From: a virus | Strand: one strand, 5' to 3' | DNA: 23,359 nt | IMG/VR virus record: IMGVR_UViG_3300050821_009624 | Coordinates: 1 to 23,359 of that record | Shown here: piece after piece, positions 2,230 to 9,879 of the stretch | Numbering within the stretch: position 1 is the first letter of the stretch | How the letters are laid out: each line of letters opens with the position of its first letter | Translations under genes and position numbers: made by a program | The notes under the pieces: model-generated | What the model was told of the DNA's origin: nothing | The model's input: only the letters and a program-made list of their open reading frames with translations | Databases searched by the model: none

Positions 2230-3195
2230 TCAGGGGCCGGGGTATTTCACATCGGCGACGAGCCCGGAGCCGGCCTCGTTGCGCGAGGTCAGCGTGTACT
2301 CACCGAGTATCATCGCCTTCTCGTTGTCACCGGTCTTGGCCAGATCAGTGAGGGCGATCGGCCGCAGCCAGGCAAGACCCCACAAATCCGAGTTGATGAT
2401 CAGGGTGTCACGCTGCCGCATAAAGCGGTCAGCTTTGATTTCGACGGTGCCGAAATCGTAGACGTAGACATCAATGCTGTTGACCAGCTTCTCTTCCTCG
2501 GCATTGACGTATCGAGTGTTGTTACCTGAAAACGTGCTGATCCCCTGCTTCAGCGAGCTGTTGACGAGGACAAAATCCGGCTCGTCCCCGCTGTTGGTCC
2601 ACACCGAGGCAAGCGCGGTCTGGAGCATGGTCTCGGTAATAAGGATCGGTGTCGTGCCATCGGTGCGGGCATTGGTGCCATCACCGGCCGGGTTAGCCCC
2701 ACCAGCTTGTATATTCGCCACGTTCGTCTTGATCCACGCCAGCACCGAGGCGCACTTAGCCGGTGCGGAACCGACCGTGCCGTTTGTGCGAGCCTGGTTG
2801 GACAGCAAGATCGTCTCGATGTCGCGCTTGAGGCTCTTACCTTTCTTGGCGATCTGATAGCCCTTCTCGGACTTACGTCCGGCCTTGTCGACGGCTTCCT
2901 CGGTTCCCGAGATGACTACCGTCTTGGCGGAAATCTGCGTGTAGTTGCCAAGACGGACGGTTGGCACAACGGCGTCAAAAGACGAGATGTCGTCGCCCTG
3001 GATTTTCGCGTTGTTACCGTTGGGTGTTTCCAACGCGTCGGTTTGCCATTCATGAAGTATCGCCGTCGCCTTCTCTCTAGCGATGGCTGTCATAAACGGC
3101 GTTTCGGTCGGACTGATATTATAGATGATGTCGGATAGGTCTTCTCTCAGACCTACAGCACTGTAGGTTGTAAACGTGTTGGTGATGAGAGCCAT
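2230..3195 (-). CDS. Major capsid protein, SU10-like family
   Basis: A 321-residue protein that forms the icosahedral head shell. The N-terminus (ALITNTFTTYSAVGLREDLS, followed by a segment with SPTETPF) matches the SU10-type major capsid family (formerly DUF5309), which has an HK97-like fold. The family's usual length is around 300-350 residues, so this looks full length. Ser/Thr/Gly-rich stretches near residues 155-185 could be a surface insertion. The start is well supported: GGAG lies 6 bases before the ATG at 3195. The gene directly follows the scaffold gene (39-base gap) and is followed by a strong hairpin, the usual arrangement for a highly expressed head gene. Family assignment is by sequence pattern, without a search. 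Confidence 0.85.
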   Translation of the reverse strand: MALITNTFTTYSAVGLREDLSDIIYNISPTETPFMTAIAREKATAILHEWQTDALETPNGNNAKIQGDDISSFDAVVPTVRLGNYTQISAKTVVISGTEEAVDKAGRKSEKGYQIAKKGKSLKRDIETILLSNQARTNGTVGSAPAKCASVLAWIKTNVANIQAGGANPAGDGTNARTDGTTPILITETMLQTALASVWTNSGDEPDFVLVNSSLKQGISTFSGNNTRYVNAEEEKLVNSIDVYVYDFGTVEIKADRFMRQRDTLIINSDLWGLAWLRPIALTDLAKTGDNEKAMILGEYTLTSRNEAGSGLVADVKYPGP

Positions 3196-3233
3196 GATTA
3201 CTCCGGGAGTTCATCCCCGGCGCGAACGGTGGA

Positions 3234-4337
3234 TTAGAGGATTTCGGCGATGAGCGAACCGGCGTCGCGCACGCTGTTCGTGCGGCCGAACCGATTGACT
3301 GAGCGGGTGAGCCTGGATTGCGGCCCGCGATCATTGTCCTGGCTGGTGCCAGGAGGTCTGACCTGGGCCGGAACATTGTTCCGCTTGGTGTCTGCCGAGG
3401 CGGCAGCCGTCAGCTGCTTATCATAGAGCATCGCCTTGGTCGCCAGCACGATGAGCCGGTGATCGTAGGCGTTATCGATCTCTTCGGGACTAAACCCGCC
3501 GACATCGCGCAGAAAGATGCCGAGATCCCTGCGGATCTGGTTGCCTTTTACCGGATCGGCAAAGTCGGGCATCTTCTCGGCCAACGCCTTGTGCTCTTTA
3601 GGGAGCAATTCGGCTAGCCGCTGAGCCTGCTGCTGCTTTTGATACTCAACCAACTGTTGTTGACCGTCGCGGAACTGTTGTTCGATGATGCCGAGCCGGG
3701 ATCGCAGCGCGTCACGCATTGCCTGCAGCCGAACGGCCTCGGCAGGGTTGTTCGCTGCGAGTGTTTCCCAGTCGACGTTGTTCAACGCCTCCGCCTGGGG
3801 GGCGGCTAGGATCATCATTTTCTGCAAACCCGCCAGATATTCGGCTCTCTGGGCCACAGCCGCCTCACGCTCGCCGTCATAGGCACGGCGGGCTTCGGCG
3901 GCCTCCTGGCTGCGTTGGGTAAGCGCGGCCTCACGCTGGCTCTCTCGCCGGGCAACAGTCTGCTGCAAGGCGGGTGGGAGCTGGCTAAACGCCTGCTTTT
4001 CGTCGGTACTCCACGACGCTGGCGGTTCGATGGCAGCCGCGGGGGGCGGCTGTTCGTCTTGGCCTTTGTCATCTTCTGGCCCGGTGGGCCGGCTCTCATC
4101 GGCTCCGGGATCGGGCGGCTCCTCTCGAGGAGGCTCGCCGGATGGCTTGTCACCGGCTGGTGCCGGTGGCGTATCGTCCGCGAACAACAGACCGGCGATG
4201 GCATCGCCAGCCGAGCGCGTGTCGGTGACCGTATAGGTTTTCTCGGCGCCCTTCGCGGCGCCATTCGAAGCGGGCGCAGGCGCAGGAGGTGGGCTCGCAC
4301 CGCCGGGATCGGCGGCACCGTTCGACAGCTCAGCCAT
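3234..4337 (-). CDS. Capsid scaffolding/assembly protein
   Basis: A 367-residue protein lying directly upstream of the capsid gene, the standard scaffold position. Residues about 1-100 are disordered, rich in Pro, Ala, Glu and Asp. Residues about 110-245 are long Gln/Ala/Arg/Glu-rich helices likely to form a coiled coil, and a folded helical segment follows (around LRDVGGFSPEEIDNAYDHR). The C-terminus is basic then hydrophobic (NRFGRTNSVRDAGSLIAEIL). Scaffolds template the procapsid and leave it before packaging; this composition and order fit that role. GAGG lies 9 bases upstream of the ATG at 4337. A hairpin-bearing gap precedes it. No protease motif is visible. Confidence 0.75.
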   Translation of the reverse strand: MAELSNGAADPGGASPPPAPAPASNGAAKGAEKTYTVTDTRSAGDAIAGLLFADDTPPAPAGDKPSGEPPREEPPDPGADESRPTGPEDDKGQDEQPPPAAAIEPPASWSTDEKQAFSQLPPALQQTVARRESQREAALTQRSQEAAEARRAYDGEREAAVAQRAEYLAGLQKMMILAAPQAEALNNVDWETLAANNPAEAVRLQAMRDALRSRLGIIEQQFRDGQQQLVEYQKQQQAQRLAELLPKEHKALAEKMPDFADPVKGNQIRRDLGIFLRDVGGFSPEEIDNAYDHRLIVLATKAMLYDKQLTAAASADTKRNNVPAQVRPPGTSQDNDRGPQSRLTRSVNRFGRTNSVRDAGSLIAEIL

Positions 4338-4766: not shown

Positions 4767-7145
4767 TCAGCCAGGGCTCTGAGCCGGCTGGTTCTGCGCC
4801 GCGAGGCTCGCCTGATGGACGGCAAGCTGGTGCGCGTTCTCGGCTTTCATCTGCTCGATCGCCATATCGTTGGCCGCGCGCAACCGCTCGATTTCGAGAT
4901 CGTTCTGAGCCTTTTGCTGCGCGAGCGCGAATTGCTGCGCCAACTTCTCGCGGTCGAGGCGCTGCTGGTGCCCGGCTTGCTGATCGGCGATCTGCATTTC
5001 CTGCGCCGCTTTTTGGCTCGACAGCTGCTGCTGATGCCCTGCCTTTTGCTCGTTGAGCTGAACGTCAGAGGCCGCCTTTTGCTGCTGTAGCTGCATCTCG
5101 GCCTGGGCCATCGCCTGCGTCGGGTCAGGCTTGGGCGGCTGCGGCGGCCCGGTTACCGAGGGCGGTGGTGGGACGGTTGGGTCGGTAACCGCGAAGTTCG
5201 ACTTGAACCCGGCGTTTTCACTGACCTTGCCGACCGTGTCGTAGATGTTCTTGGCATAAACCAAAGGGCCGCTCATGCCCTGCTGGCCCATCACGATCTG
5301 CTGCTGAATATTCAAGAGCGCCATCAAATGGCTGAGGATCTGATCGCGGTTACCGGTTCCGAGCCCGACATTGACCGTCACGGTCATGTCGTTTTTCCAC
5401 TGCGCCGGATCGGTCTGTAGCGGCGCCCCTGATACGCGGATGATGCGCTCTTGCTGCGCGTGCTTCTTGATCAGCCCGAGGATCCCGCGCACCGCCTTTT
5501 GCACGCTGAAGGCAAAGATCCGGGCGATCAGCTCGACACGCTGCGCGGCCGCCTGCTGGATCAAGTTGACGCCCGTCGCGGTCTTGTTGAGATCGTCCGG
5601 GTCGAGACCTTGATTGTGCCGCGAAATGCCGGTGCGCACCTCGGCGGTCTGGTCCATGTACTCGACCAAGCCTTGCGCCTTCTCGGCCACAAATGGAGTG
5701 ATTAGAGGCGTGACACCGTCGGCCGTTTTAGCTCGCACAATGCCGCCCGGCCTTGAGGTCAACAAATCGTCATAGGTCTCGTCGGTCGCCGCACTCTCGA
5801 CGACCAAATGTCGGGGATTGTTCGTCAAGTAGATGTTGTCGAGCATCTGGCGGATTAGAGTTGACTTGATCCGCTGAAGGTCCATAACCAAGTCTGCTAC
5901 CGCCATCCCCACCAGCTTGTGCGGCATCGGCACCGGACAGAGAAAGTTAAACGGCACCTCGTCGACTTCCTCGATATCAGGTTTTCCCTTCTTTTTCAGG
6001 ATCACCGCAGACCGGTCGACGGTGACGACTTTAAGCAACTCAGCCAACCCGTCGCCGTCATAATCGGCCTGGATGTAATTCTCTTCGACCCAGTACATCC
6101 GCATGGGCGGGTCGGTGCGGTCGTTGGTATAGGGCATGTCGTCGTCAGGCATGAACCGCTGCAGCCGCTCGGAATTGTAGTCCTCGCTATCGGTCCAGCT
6201 GATCTGGTCGAGGCAATCGGCGTCATAGCCCTGCTGCAAGAGTGCGGTGCGCGTGGTCGGTTGGCGGTGGCACAGAAACGGGATGTTCTCGCGTGTGCTG
6301 CGGCGCGAAAAGAGGATTTCCTCGGGCGGCACGTTCGCTATCTTGATGCGGCCCTGCTTGCGCGTCACCCGCAGCTTGCAATCATAAAGCATCGGTGGCG
6401 GCTGTGGCGGCATCCCCGGCATTTGCGGTGGCACCGGCTGCGGCGCGTCCTCGCCCATCCCCGAAGACGTCGGCGCCGGATAGGAACGCTCTTCGAGGAT
6501 CTCGACTTCAGCGCTCGAATTGGGATCAGAGAGGTCGCGGATCTTGGCGTTATATTCGTCGGCAGTGAGCCCGGTGAAACTGTTGGTTTCCCTTATTTGC
6601 TCTTCGGACCACCAGCGCTTGATCCAGCCGAGCTTTTGCAGCAATCCGTCTTTAAACCAGTCATGGAGTATAAGGAAGCCATCGTTGTCTATATTGAAAA
6701 CTTGATTGATATACAACGTGGCCTGGCGCCCGGCCTCCTCGGGGTCGAGCGGCGGCGGCATCCCCGGAGCGGTTGGCGGTGGGGTCATCGTCGTGCGGAT
6801 GGGTGCCAACTCCGCGATGGTGTCCGACGCGGTAAAGATGCGCAGCAGCGCCGGTAATACCCACTCGACTGTTTCCAGCACGGTCAGCATCACCACTTTA
6901 GAACGGTTCTGGCCTGGTGGTGGGTCAGCGAATTCGGCCCCCTGATAGGCCTCCATCAACGATTGGCGCTCGTTCGACAGCTTGCCGTTTTCGGCACCAA
7001 TCGCCTGGTTCAACTCGCGCCGGATGATGTCCTGCAGCTCGTCAACCGGCATCAGGTCTTTTGGATCGCGCCGACGGGCGCGCGGCCTCACATCGCCAGC
7101 TGGATCCCGCAAGCTAGGAAACAGGGCAACGTTATCGAGTGGCAT
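4767..7145 (-). CDS. Portal protein, large P22-like
   Basis: At 792 residues this is the size expected of a P22-type portal, the dodecameric ring at the head vertex through which DNA enters and leaves. The N-terminal part has the helical clip/stem region (SLMEAYQGAEFADPPPGQNR, then VLETVEWVLPALLRIF). The core carries portal-like segments such as PFNFLCPVPMPHKLVGMAVA and the conserved stretch around GLDPDDLNKTATGVNLIQQA. Residues about 686-784 are nine consecutive 11-residue helical repeats, matching the long C-terminal barrel helix known in P22. The ATG at 7145 follows AGGA by 3 bases and overlaps the coiled-coil gene. Large terminase lies upstream and scaffold and capsid downstream, all on one strand. 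Confidence 0.88.
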   Translation of the reverse strand: MPLDNVALFPSLRDPAGDVRPRARRRDPKDLMPVDELQDIIRRELNQAIGAENGKLSNERQSLMEAYQGAEFADPPPGQNRSKVVMLTVLETVEWVLPALLRIFTASDTIAELAPIRTTMTPPPTAPGMPPPLDPEEAGRQATLYINQVFNIDNDGFLILHDWFKDGLLQKLGWIKRWWSEEQIRETNSFTGLTADEYNAKIRDLSDPNSSAEVEILEERSYPAPTSSGMGEDAPQPVPPQMPGMPPQPPPMLYDCKLRVTRKQGRIKIANVPPEEILFSRRSTRENIPFLCHRQPTTRTALLQQGYDADCLDQISWTDSEDYNSERLQRFMPDDDMPYTNDRTDPPMRMYWVEENYIQADYDGDGLAELLKVVTVDRSAVILKKKGKPDIEEVDEVPFNFLCPVPMPHKLVGMAVADLVMDLQRIKSTLIRQMLDNIYLTNNPRHLVVESAATDETYDDLLTSRPGGIVRAKTADGVTPLITPFVAEKAQGLVEYMDQTAEVRTGISRHNQGLDPDDLNKTATGVNLIQQAAAQRVELIARIFAFSVQKAVRGILGLIKKHAQQERIIRVSGAPLQTDPAQWKNDMTVTVNVGLGTGNRDQILSHLMALLNIQQQIVMGQQGMSGPLVYAKNIYDTVGKVSENAGFKSNFAVTDPTVPPPPSVTGPPQPPKPDPTQAMAQAEMQLQQQKAASDVQLNEQKAGHQQQLSSQKAAQEMQIADQQAGHQQRLDREKLAQQFALAQQKAQNDLEIERLRAANDMAIEQMKAENAHQLAVHQASLAAQNQPAQSPG
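4794..5090 (-). repeat. Nine tandem 33-base units encoding 11-residue repeats in the portal C-terminus
   Basis: Translating the portal C-terminus gives nine back-to-back units of exactly 11 residues, each beginning with Leu or Ile, for example LQQQKAASDVQ, LNEQKAGHQQQ, LSSQKAAQEMQ, IADQQAGHQQR and IEQMKAENAHQ. Hendecad periodicity favours straight or slightly right-handed helical bundles. The units are Gln-rich and have diverged, so this is an old tandem expansion rather than recent slippage. Confidence 0.85.
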
Positions 7146-7731: not shown

Positions 7732-9879
7732 TTAAACCACGGCAAGATCAGGGTATTTCAACGGTTTGGTGCTGCCGGCATTGCGCACATTGGCGAGCGC
7801 CCAGTATCTGAGCGCGTCGGAATTATGCACAACAGCGCCATTCTCCAGCGAAAAGCAGTGTCCATCAGGAACCGTAAGGTCCCAAACGTCACTCCGCTCC
7901 GAGAGCTTTTTGACGCTTGCGATACGCAATGGCCTTGCAGGGCGAGCAGCAATAAAGATGCTGCCTGCCGTTTGCCCGAACCAGCGCAGAAAATTCCTTA
8001 CTGCACTCCAGGCACCGACGGGCTTCACGCTTCCATTTAGTCCAGGTTTGCGACTGTTTTGCCTGCCTGCTATGCCATAATCTCCCTTCAGGAGAAGCAT
8101 GCCATTCGGCCGCCCTTTGCCGGGCCAGAGGGCCGATTTCGCGGGAAACGCGAGCCCTGGCCTTTTTGAGATGATCGGTGGCAGGAAGGCATTCGAGGTT
8201 CGCCAATCGAGCGTCGTGAACGTTCCCGTCCCGGTGGTGAATGTGACAACCGGGGGGAACAGGACCGAAGGCGGCTTTCCAAACATCGCGATGAAGTTTG
8301 CGGCCACCGCGCGTCGGATACTTTTCGCTAGGCCAGACGCGATACAGTCCGCCATCGAAAAATATGGTGAGGTCGTCAAGGTAGACAGGATCGCTGAACC
8401 CGGCTGCAGGGACCGCGCGGATGTCCACCCGTTCTCCGTCAGAAATAAATGATCCGGCGTGCATTTCACCGTAAGCCCGTCGGTGAACGCCACCGCCACA
8501 AGTGGGGCATCCCGCTTCGTCAGCCTCGGGTTTGTATACTGCTTCCAACCGCATGGCGTTAGAACCTCTCCACTGCAAGGAAGGTCCTTTATCTGACGCG
8601 TTCCGTGACGCGTCAACACCATCGTCTCACCGTGAAAACACGCGTGACTCGACCAATCATGAAGCGGCCGGTCCGAGTAGGTCCGCAGGCTCTCATTCCA
8701 GCTACGCCGGTAGTTCTGCAGCGCCGAAATCCCGCGCGCGCACTTTTCGGCGTCGAACCAGCAGCGCGGTAGCAGCATCCGGGCCGCATTGATGCCGTCC
8801 TCGATCTTTTGCGACGCGATCACCGTTACGCGGTGAAACCCGAGCGAGCGCAACACCTCAAGCCGCGAACGACCGGTCCCGAGCTCGCGTGCCTCGGCGT
8901 CGTGCGGCAGGACATGCTCGCCCCATTTGTAAGGCCGCCGGTCGAGCTCGCGGGTGTACCAGTCGAGCCCGACACCGCTATTCTCTATATAATCTATAAA
9001 GCGGATCTCTTGCCCGGCGAGCTGAATGAGCCAAATCGCCGTCGCGTCGCCGATGCCGAGATCCCAGGCGGTGTGCACCGGCAGGACCGGATCGTGCAGC
9101 ACCCGGCCGATACGCTTTTCCTTTTCCGCCGCTTCCATCTGGCTGCCGTAGTAGGAACCCATGACGCCAGCGTCAAAGCTGACCAGATACTCTTGCCGAT
9201 AGCGCGCCTCGCCATCGTCCGGGCCATACTCGCGCAGCAGTTCGCGGTGCTCGACCTCGAGCTGCTCATACGTGAAAACATCGGTCTCGGTCGCGGGCAA
9301 CTGCTCGGCAAACCACGTGTCGTCCTGGTTCGCCGCCTCAAAAAACGTCGAGGCGTGGTTGCGGCCGCGCGGGGTCGTTATAAAGAGTGCCCAACCGCCA
9401 TTTTCCGCCAGGATCGGCCGCAAGTAGCCCCATGCGCTCGGATCGGCGAGCGCAAACTCGCTAAAGACGACGCCAATTGGCGGGCTGCCGACCAAGCTGT
9501 TGTAGTTATCCGAGCCGACCAGCTGCCACAGGGACCCACACTTGAACCGGATCGCCATATCGGTCTCGCGCGTCGACTCACGAAGCTCGCGCGGAAACGC
9601 CTCGTTTATCCGCCGCAGCCCGGTGTGCGGGTTGACCGCGTCCCACACCGCCTTCCTCGCCTGGTTGGCCTCGGGCAACATATGCCAATAAACCCCGACG
9701 CGGGTGTGAGCGGCGACCGCCGACCAGTGCAGGCAGACTTCGTCTTTTCCGGCCCGCCGATGCCAGATCGCAACCGCCCGCTTGCCGCCGTTTTCAAGGT
9801 ATCTGTATAGTTTCAGCTGATAGGGCCGCGGGCGCCAGTTGTTGTGCGGCAGACGGATCAGACCGTCGTCGAGCGGCAT
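7732..9879 (-). CDS. terL: Terminase large subunit precursor interrupted by an intein
   Basis: The 715-residue precursor contains a complete packaging motor/nuclease of about 442 residues after removal of a 273-residue intein. ATPase motifs: Walker A HRRAGKD (residues 40-46), a Walker B-like GVVFSE ending in Glu141, and the coupling motif FITTPRG (about 166-172). Nuclease motifs: AWDLGIGD (Asp273, Asp278), the LPHDA motif (Asp327), and SDALRY with Asp688 just after the intein. Cys414 to Asn686 is the intein, inserted inside the last nuclease motif (SSHA then SDALRY), so unspliced protein should lack a proper active site. The ATG at 9879 starts 3 bases after the stop of a tiny membrane-peptide gene and has no obvious ribosome site, suggesting coupling. 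The portal is downstream; the probable small subunit lies about 7.3 kb away. Confidence 0.92.
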   Translation of the reverse strand: MPLDDGLIRLPHNNWRPRPYQLKLYRYLENGGKRAVAIWHRRAGKDEVCLHWSAVAAHTRVGVYWHMLPEANQARKAVWDAVNPHTGLRRINEAFPRELRESTRETDMAIRFKCGSLWQLVGSDNYNSLVGSPPIGVVFSEFALADPSAWGYLRPILAENGGWALFITTPRGRNHASTFFEAANQDDTWFAEQLPATETDVFTYEQLEVEHRELLREYGPDDGEARYRQEYLVSFDAGVMGSYYGSQMEAAEKEKRIGRVLHDPVLPVHTAWDLGIGDATAIWLIQLAGQEIRFIDYIENSGVGLDWYTRELDRRPYKWGEHVLPHDAEARELGTGRSRLEVLRSLGFHRVTVIASQKIEDGINAARMLLPRCWFDAEKCARGISALQNYRRSWNESLRTYSDRPLHDWSSHACFHGETMVLTRHGTRQIKDLPCSGEVLTPCGWKQYTNPRLTKRDAPLVAVAFTDGLTVKCTPDHLFLTENGWTSARSLQPGSAILSTLTTSPYFSMADCIASGLAKSIRRAVAANFIAMFGKPPSVLFPPVVTFTTGTGTFTTLDWRTSNAFLPPIISKRPGLAFPAKSALWPGKGRPNGMLLLKGDYGIAGRQNSRKPGLNGSVKPVGAWSAVRNFLRWFGQTAGSIFIAARPARPLRIASVKKLSERSDVWDLTVPDGHCFSLENGAVVHNSDALRYWALANVRNAGSTKPLKYPDLAVV
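7889..8554 (-). CDS. HNH homing endonuclease nested out of frame inside the intein
   Basis: A 221-residue protein lies entirely inside the intein DNA, in the -1 frame relative to the terminase. It has a CPTC knuckle at residues 16-19, then an HNH core: RKLHRDVWKAAFGPVPPGCH leads into IHHRDGN (His106/His107), LANLE (Asn119) and DHLKKA (His128), matching the HNH_3-type pattern. A C-terminal zinc ribbon has Cys181/Cys184 and Cys202/203/Cys206. All expected catalytic positions are present, so it looks functional. The start is either ATG at 8554 (GAGG 10 bases upstream) or TTG at 8578 (AAAGGA 6 bases upstream). By analogy with homing endonucleases it would cut intein-less terminase genes and spread the intein; this is inferred. 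The frame is open upstream only to 8626, so an extended form starting before the intein is excluded. Confidence 0.85.
   Translation of the reverse strand: MRLEAVYKPEADEAGCPTCGGGVHRRAYGEMHAGSFISDGERVDIRAVPAAGFSDPVYLDDLTIFFDGGLYRVWPSEKYPTRGGRKLHRDVWKAAFGPVPPGCHIHHRDGNVHDARLANLECLPATDHLKKARARVSREIGPLARQRAAEWHASPEGRLWHSRQAKQSQTWTKWKREARRCLECSKEFSALVRANGRQHLYCCSPCKAIAYRKRQKALGAE
8595..8614. repeat. Hairpin just upstream of the nested HNH gene's ribosome site
   Basis: On the minus strand GACGCGT and ACGCGTC form a perfect 7-base stem with a 6-base loop. The hairpin ends 4 bases before AAAGGA (8585-8590), the ribosome site for the TTG start at 8578. It lies inside the coding sequence of the intein's N-terminal block. 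Hairpins near the ribosome site control some phage homing endonuclease genes; a role here is inference. Confidence 0.45.

Follow-up and report, generated by a model that had tools for sequence, protein, structure and literature searches.

The terminase large subunit (TerL) gene of IMG/VR virus record IMGVR_UViG_3300050821_009624, a 23,359-base stretch of DNA called the window here, carries an intein, and very probably this is a mobile element in which the homing endonuclease, rather than being an in-frame fusion, has a separate HNH gene of its own that overlaps the intein in the −1 frame. The nesting, the conservation of this arrangement and the selection on both reading frames emerge plainly from our computational comparisons. 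The features concerned are listed below.

7732–9879, minus strand: TerL precursor open reading frame (ORF), intein included, 715 amino acids, matching PHROG 2472 (4e-41) and PHROG 2, terminase large subunit (1e-20).
8641–9879, minus strand: TerL N-extein, 413 amino acids, its DNA 81–83% identical to that of intein-free relatives (L127–L130) across the joined junction.
7822–8640, minus strand: intein of 819 nt, 273 codons, uninterrupted in the terminase frame, supported by Pfam and NCBIfam models, AlphaFold and Foldseek, and gap-free empty sites.
8389–8640, minus strand: N-terminal half of the Hint domain, 84 residues with Cys1 and block B TPDH, placed by alignment.
7822–7893, minus strand: C-terminal half of the Hint domain, blocks F/G, ending ...FSLENGAVVHN, placed by NCBIfam model, alignment and AlphaFold.
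7732–7821, minus strand: TerL C-extein SDALRYWAL..., 29 amino acids plus stop, with Ser as the +1 residue and Ala there in the intein-free relatives compared.
7889–8554, minus strand: HNH endonuclease gene, 221 amino acids plus stop, −1 frame (offset 2) relative to TerL, HNH_3 family, with 98 nested relatives.
8390–8554, minus strand: HNH residues 1–55, an N-terminal extension overprinted on the Hint block A–B region and constrained in both frames, as judged by codon-position divergence.
8498–8509, minus strand: CPTC (Cys16, Cys19), candidate zinc ligands encoded by two codons that do not vary at any position.
8171–8245, minus strand: HNH catalytic motif region HIHHRDGN...NLE...DH, with invariant columns H104, H106, H107, D109, N119 and H128.
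7937–8014, minus strand: C-terminal zinc motif of Cys181, 184, 202 and 206, all invariant columns, with a weak Zn_ribbon_8 match below cutoff.

The intein lies exactly where the first-pass annotation, made from the sequence and its ORFs, had placed it, with the splice residues Cys1, TPDH in block B and VVHN followed by Ser at +1. NCBIfam models identified intein_Nterm from TerL residue 414 and intein_Cterm at residues 665–687, and the Pfam model Intein_splicing matched with E=9e-9, a hair under its cutoff. Both Hint halves were modelled by AlphaFold with pLDDT values mostly of 92–97, and the top Protein Data Bank (PDB) match of the intein model in Foldseek was the gp41-1 intein, with a TM-score by target of 0.84–0.86. 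The middle (about residues 90–234, ~145 residues) was modelled with low confidence and is probably disordered in the TerL-frame product. As the two halves sit on one ORF in the window, this is not a split intein, for which they would be on separate ORFs. The −1 frame encodes, as had also been claimed, a complete HNH_3-like enzyme, Pfam HNH_3 (PF13392) matching with E=5e-13 and 48.8 bits against a cutoff of 24.8; several PHROG HNH families match this ORF too, and its AlphaFold model is mostly confident (pLDDT 84) and places cysteines like zinc ligands. An alternative TTG start at 8578 would give 229 amino acids, but the conserved start is the ATG at 8554. The endonuclease is out of frame with Hint in the window and in all 98 nested loci, so that the element does not have the architecture of a canonical endonuclease-containing intein.

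The arrangement is not peculiar to the window. With the HNH protein as query, viral contigs yielded three different relatives with identical nesting (four loci, two being copies), and phage records yielded the same nesting in Tetrasphaera phage TJE1, Rhodobacteraceae phage LS06-2018-MD07, Acinetobacter phage Highwayman and a human faecal phage. Three of these records are annotated, with only the terminase at this place and no HNH gene in the annotation.

L005 (TJE1) 3067–3684, L006 3028–3510, L007 2896–3525: complete out-of-frame HNH genes in terL of phage genomes annotated only as terminase.

Extending the search by profile to viral and genome contigs raised the total, collected by HNH similarity, to 98 loci in which one ORF holds both Hint-N and Hint-C and HNH is out of frame, in the −1 frame (offset 2) in 97 and in the other alternative frame in one. 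The −1-frame HNH ORF that the first-pass annotation had proposed to look for in terminase inteins of related phages is thus a recurrent feature. These 98 loci were reduced to 85 non-redundant ones, and the start and promoter analysis used 43 non-redundant loci, with 31 held out. The +1 residue is Cys, Ser or Thr in 84 of the 85 as delimited, the exception (L102) having a mis-delimited end. In addition, a fetch by Hint-N similarity that was blind to HNH returned 80 loci (some already known), 79 with a complete nested HNH and one cut by the contig end; a broken or decayed HNH frame beside a conserved intein frame, which the first-pass annotation had named as evidence against its proposal, was sought among these 80 loci and none was found. 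The insertion site in nearly all non-redundant copies is a C-terminal xDAxRY-like motif of TerL, the region of the third acidic nuclease motif, and several adjoining insertion points are used (HDW/CSH, HDWA/SH, HDWSSH/C and HDWSSHG/S, the slash marking the point). A group I or II intron was set aside, the host frame being a Hint intein under selection for openness.

Three further observations concern individual nested loci. L083 (1984–4275; HNH 3575–4087) is the sole offset-1 case, possibly of independent origin, with 0 intein-frame stops against 11 expected. L003 (3998–4636) has a 75-nt deletion within HNH relative to L001, both reading frames still being open. L102 and L107 are in contigs binned as archaeal metagenome-assembled genomes (Methanomethylophilaceae and Thermoplasmatales).

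Comparison with empty sites points to mobility. The intein-free TerL proteins of L127–L130 are 95–96% identical to that of the window, and the junction aligns without a gap, the insert being absent; the same gap-free empty site is seen when L038 is compared with the intein-free L207–L210. For the empty-site alleles in general, TerL protein identity was put at 96–97%. Between intein-bearing and empty alleles the +1 residue is Ser for Ala, or Cys for Thr, compatible with splicing chemistry. The window and L013 have exteins only 23% identical that carry Hints 72% and HNHs 60% identical, and on this ground Hint and HNH move as one unit, present or absent at one site and travelling independently of the host gene, as homing elements do. 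The first-pass annotation had pictured a free HNH gene parasitising an intein; this may describe the origin at most, because today Hint and HNH diverge together (r=0.90 over all pairs) and share nucleotides in the catalytic Hint block, and so constitute one integrated element. These data also bear on whether the HNH protein is a packaging cofactor rather than a homing enzyme. HNH packaging proteins do adjoin terminase genes (PMC10448857), and free-standing HNH relatives (L009, L011 and L012) are neighbours of terL or terS in Sphaerotilus SN1, Acinetobacter BP10 and Pseudomonas PAE1; however, the nearly identical intein-free TerL relatives have no HNH at this site, and the element is spread across unrelated TerLs as homing predicts, which makes an exclusively packaging function very unlikely. 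A second, packaging role besides homing may nevertheless exist.

Selection on the two frames was assessed over the HNH core outside the Hint halves in the 85 non-redundant loci, keeping the HNH protein and codon usage and shuffling synonymous codons. Not a single intein-frame stop was observed against 172 expected, or 299 expected with extein codon usage, whereas the third frame, as a control, had 1303 stops against 1322 expected, i.e. no avoidance. These data support the earlier claim that the terminase frame must stay free of stops over the HNH DNA. Divergence per codon position in the core was 0.33/0.27/0.58, the changes falling on HNH third positions, and between loci the intein-frame protein is little constrained (33% identity) compared with HNH (61%). 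In contrast, the first 55 HNH residues, which lie over the catalytic Hint block, gave 0.30/0.21/0.26, with all three positions constrained, compared with 0.44/0.38/0.63 for the extein. In 43/43 loci the last base of intein codons 44 and 47 is T, because it is also the first base of the two HNH cysteine codons. Along the Hint, third-position divergence was 0.31 in intein codons 8–18 and 0.32 in the overlap, as against 0.65–0.68 in codons 2–7, codons 19–23 and the last 19 codons (nearly all beyond the HNH stop), and 0.67–0.68 where the same intein has no second function.

The first 30 intein codons contain the following sequences, by which the HNH gene would be expressed.

8552–8554, minus strand: HNH start codon ATG, lying 86 nt after the intein's first base, with ATG or GTG at the same place in the 43 analysed loci.
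8563–8571, minus strand: Shine–Dalgarno sequence GGAGAGGTT, coded by Hint G-E-V, conserved.
8588–8593, minus strand: −10-like GATAAA (family consensus GATAAT), after a 17-nt spacer, intein codons 16–18, conserved in the family including held-out loci.
8611–8616, minus strand: −35-like TTGACG, intein codons 9–10, likewise conserved in the family including held-out loci.

The start is exactly 86 nt past the intein's first base in all 43 loci. Intein residue 29 is variable (P, S, L, Q, A or V), yet its codon ends in A in 42 of the 43 (6.0 expected), which makes the ATG. Gly24-Glu25-Val26 is mostly written GGRGAGGTT in the same loci; 23/85 loci escape a strict Shine–Dalgarno rule, perhaps since the motif is not used in some of the hosts, which are likely Bacteroidetes. 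Upstream, codons 9–18 spell a σ70-like TTGAC[A/G]-17 nt-GATAAT, and a promoter score of at least 10 of 12 was reached by 29/43 loci against 2.4 expected from synonymous randomization. Of the held-out loci, 31/31 have the start and 24/31 have the promoter, for which 2.0 were expected. An embedded promoter is, on these sequence patterns, strongly supported for the family and moderately supported for the window. The first-pass annotation had given HNH its own ribosome sites: the Shine–Dalgarno sequence is indeed conserved, but there is one conserved start with one such sequence, not several, and the promoter-like sequence upstream is an addition that had gone unreported. As a separate observation, a gut/Bacteroidetes-like group (L008, L069–L074, L085, L090, L092 and others) has an HNH start without a Shine–Dalgarno sequence, and a post hoc inspection of this group found TAnnTTTR, a Bacteroidetes −7-like element, 21–75 nt upstream of the HNH ATG in 12/14 loci against 2 expected.

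A simpler account would be an ordinary mini-intein struck by an HNH gene that left an open frame by chance, with HNH decaying or unexpressed. The intein-frame middle, which has no confident fold and the low identity between loci given above, looks as passenger translation would, but this account is highly improbable: the catalytic and zinc residues of HNH are invariant across the aligned sequences, no decayed copy occurs among the 80 Hint-fetched loci, and the start codon, Shine–Dalgarno sequence and zinc cysteines constrain intein synonymous sites. It is similarly improbable that programmed −1 frameshifting within Hint gives a TerL–HintN–HNH fusion in place of an independently initiated HNH. 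Such shifting would suit an HNH frame that is −1 in all loci but one and that, in the window, is open for 24 codons upstream of the ATG; many loci, however, have an HNH-frame stop close upstream of the ATG (in L001 it ends 18 nt before), and frameshifting needs no conserved Shine–Dalgarno sequence, ATG or promoter-like hexamers. Stop avoidance, the conserved start with its Shine–Dalgarno sequence, codon-position constraint and recurrence in unrelated phages all favour a separate, internally started HNH protein, as had been proposed at first. An assembly or sequencing error, in which a one-base indel at each end would have thrown an in-frame HNH intein out of frame, was an explanation the first-pass annotation had itself raised, and the same classifier does pick up in-frame HNH inteins, in ribonucleotide reductases (L118 and L125), but with no sign of an indel artefact and an identical arrangement in dozens of independent contigs and in the complete records of TJE1, LS06-2018-MD07 and Highwayman, its probability is negligible.

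Two other genes identified by PHROGs lie downstream of TerL on the same strand of the window.

4767–7145, minus strand: portal.
2230–3195, minus strand: major head protein.

The promoter of the nested HNH gene also includes a candidate operator.

8600–8614, minus strand: candidate operator GACGCGTCACGGAAC, which comprises the −35 and spacer and is similar to the xDAxRY target DNA of TerL adjoining the insertion site.

The promoter segment GACGCGTTACGGAAC has 57% identity with the TerL DNA coding DAxRY just past the insertion point, compared with a mean of 25% over 75 offsets (z 4.7; z 4.5 in held-out loci), a likeness of sequence only, part of which is the −35 hexamer itself. In I-TevI, an operator that overlaps the promoter and resembles the homing site mediates autorepression (PMC2988022). 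By analogy, HNH may repress its own promoter through the target-like operator.

Taken together, these results suggest a mechanism in which we infer splicing, nuclease activity, homing and autorepression. Ribosomes would translate TerL straight through the insert, a step supported by the selection on the frame, giving one precursor with a Hint fold and a probably disordered passenger middle of ~145 residues. Judging by the motifs, the fold and the +1 nucleophile, Hint would then excise itself and join the exteins at the xDAxRY motif. HNH would be made independently from the σ70-like promoter, Shine–Dalgarno sequence and ATG, as their conservation indicates. The mobility of the element suggests that HNH cuts intein-free terL at the conserved xDAxRY-coding DNA, whereupon repair would copy in the whole element, including the splicing-compatible +1 residue. 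Finally, as the promoter spacer mimics the target DNA, the enzyme may switch off its own promoter.

Several points weigh against this interpretation. The support is computational, with splicing, HNH expression and cutting predicted. The structural tie of HNH to homing enzymes is weak, the nearest solved structure in Foldseek being I-HmuI at E=0.1. The stop test was conditioned on loci classed as one open frame, and nine Hint-flanked loci are instead split into two ORFs; the loci are also related, hence their counts are not independent. The promoter and operator motifs were first spotted by inspection, before the held-out check, the window's own −10 in TTGACG-17-GATAAA is weaker than the family GATAAT, and a generic promoter scan of the window did not list the embedded promoter.

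With confidence somewhat short of even, we would go further and propose a widespread class of phage intein with a self-contained homing gene overprinted on the splicing domain, in which host-type promoter, target-imitating operator, Shine–Dalgarno sequence, start codon and N-terminal zinc-binding extension all lie within Hint-N codons, so that splicing, cutting and an I-TevI-like autorepression would share nucleotides. The element would represent a second, compact build of mobile intein, in which a cutting enzyme on a separate overlapping gene could have its own timing and dose, untied from the splicing precursor. It is also a clear natural case of extensive same-strand overlapping coding in bacterial viruses, and a testable one, since overlapping and non-overlapping parts of a single Hint serve as internal controls. 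Through it, inteins with the enzyme in frame, inteins with the enzyme out of frame and split inteins may be linked as states along a single evolutionary path. In practice, the annotated isolate records examined list the terminase alone, without the nuclease, and a search confined to one reading frame will overlook such HNHs.

Among known systems, the fractured genes reportedly described by Dassa et al. in 2009 are split inteins whose halves are separated by a free-standing endonuclease gene. Splicing and cutting are on separate proteins there too, but the window and 97 other loci have a continuous intein, which the endonuclease overlaps out of frame. The nine loci split into two ORFs (L098, L099, L101, L105, L106, L108, L109, L110 and L114) resemble fractured genes, having Hint-N and Hint-C on different ORFs flanking HNH; several are Firmicutes or Bacteroidales contigs, and trans-splicing may produce the TerL of these loci. 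Another comparable enzyme, I-TevI of the T4 td intron (PMC2988022), is likewise an endonuclease with its own promoter inside a mobile element and a promoter-overlapping segment resembling the homing site, but it is intron-encoded and of the GIY-YIG family, and experiments have shown its autorepression, whereas the window has an intein, an HNH enzyme and an operator proposed from sequence similarity. The TerL inteins of mycobacteriophages (BAKA, Bethlehem) have an in-frame LAGLIDADG enzyme and reported sites in the ATPase domain (PMC5050341). They share a Hint intein in a phage terminase, a homing-type nuclease and a conserved-motif site with the window element, but its nuclease is out of frame and its site is the C-terminal xDAxRY motif. 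A literature search for overlapping-frame inteins found only the work on the ShiLan element and a genome announcement citing an out-of-frame HNH methylase. A 2025 preprint on actinobacteriophage inteins with ‘non-canonical architecture’ and overlapping frames, cited by the ShiLan authors (PMC11855218), may cover some of the same ground, which makes priority for the general idea uncertain. The nearest published case is ShiLan, an out-of-frame HNH insertion without an intein, lacking a splicing domain and a detectable ribosome-binding site and located in a non-essential methylase (PMC11855218). In both, an in-frame insertion conceals an HNH with zinc motifs in a second frame, and the distribution is scattered, but in the window the host frame codes a complete TerL intein of the Hint type, with a dual-coded Hint block and with promoter-like and Shine–Dalgarno sequences embedded in it.
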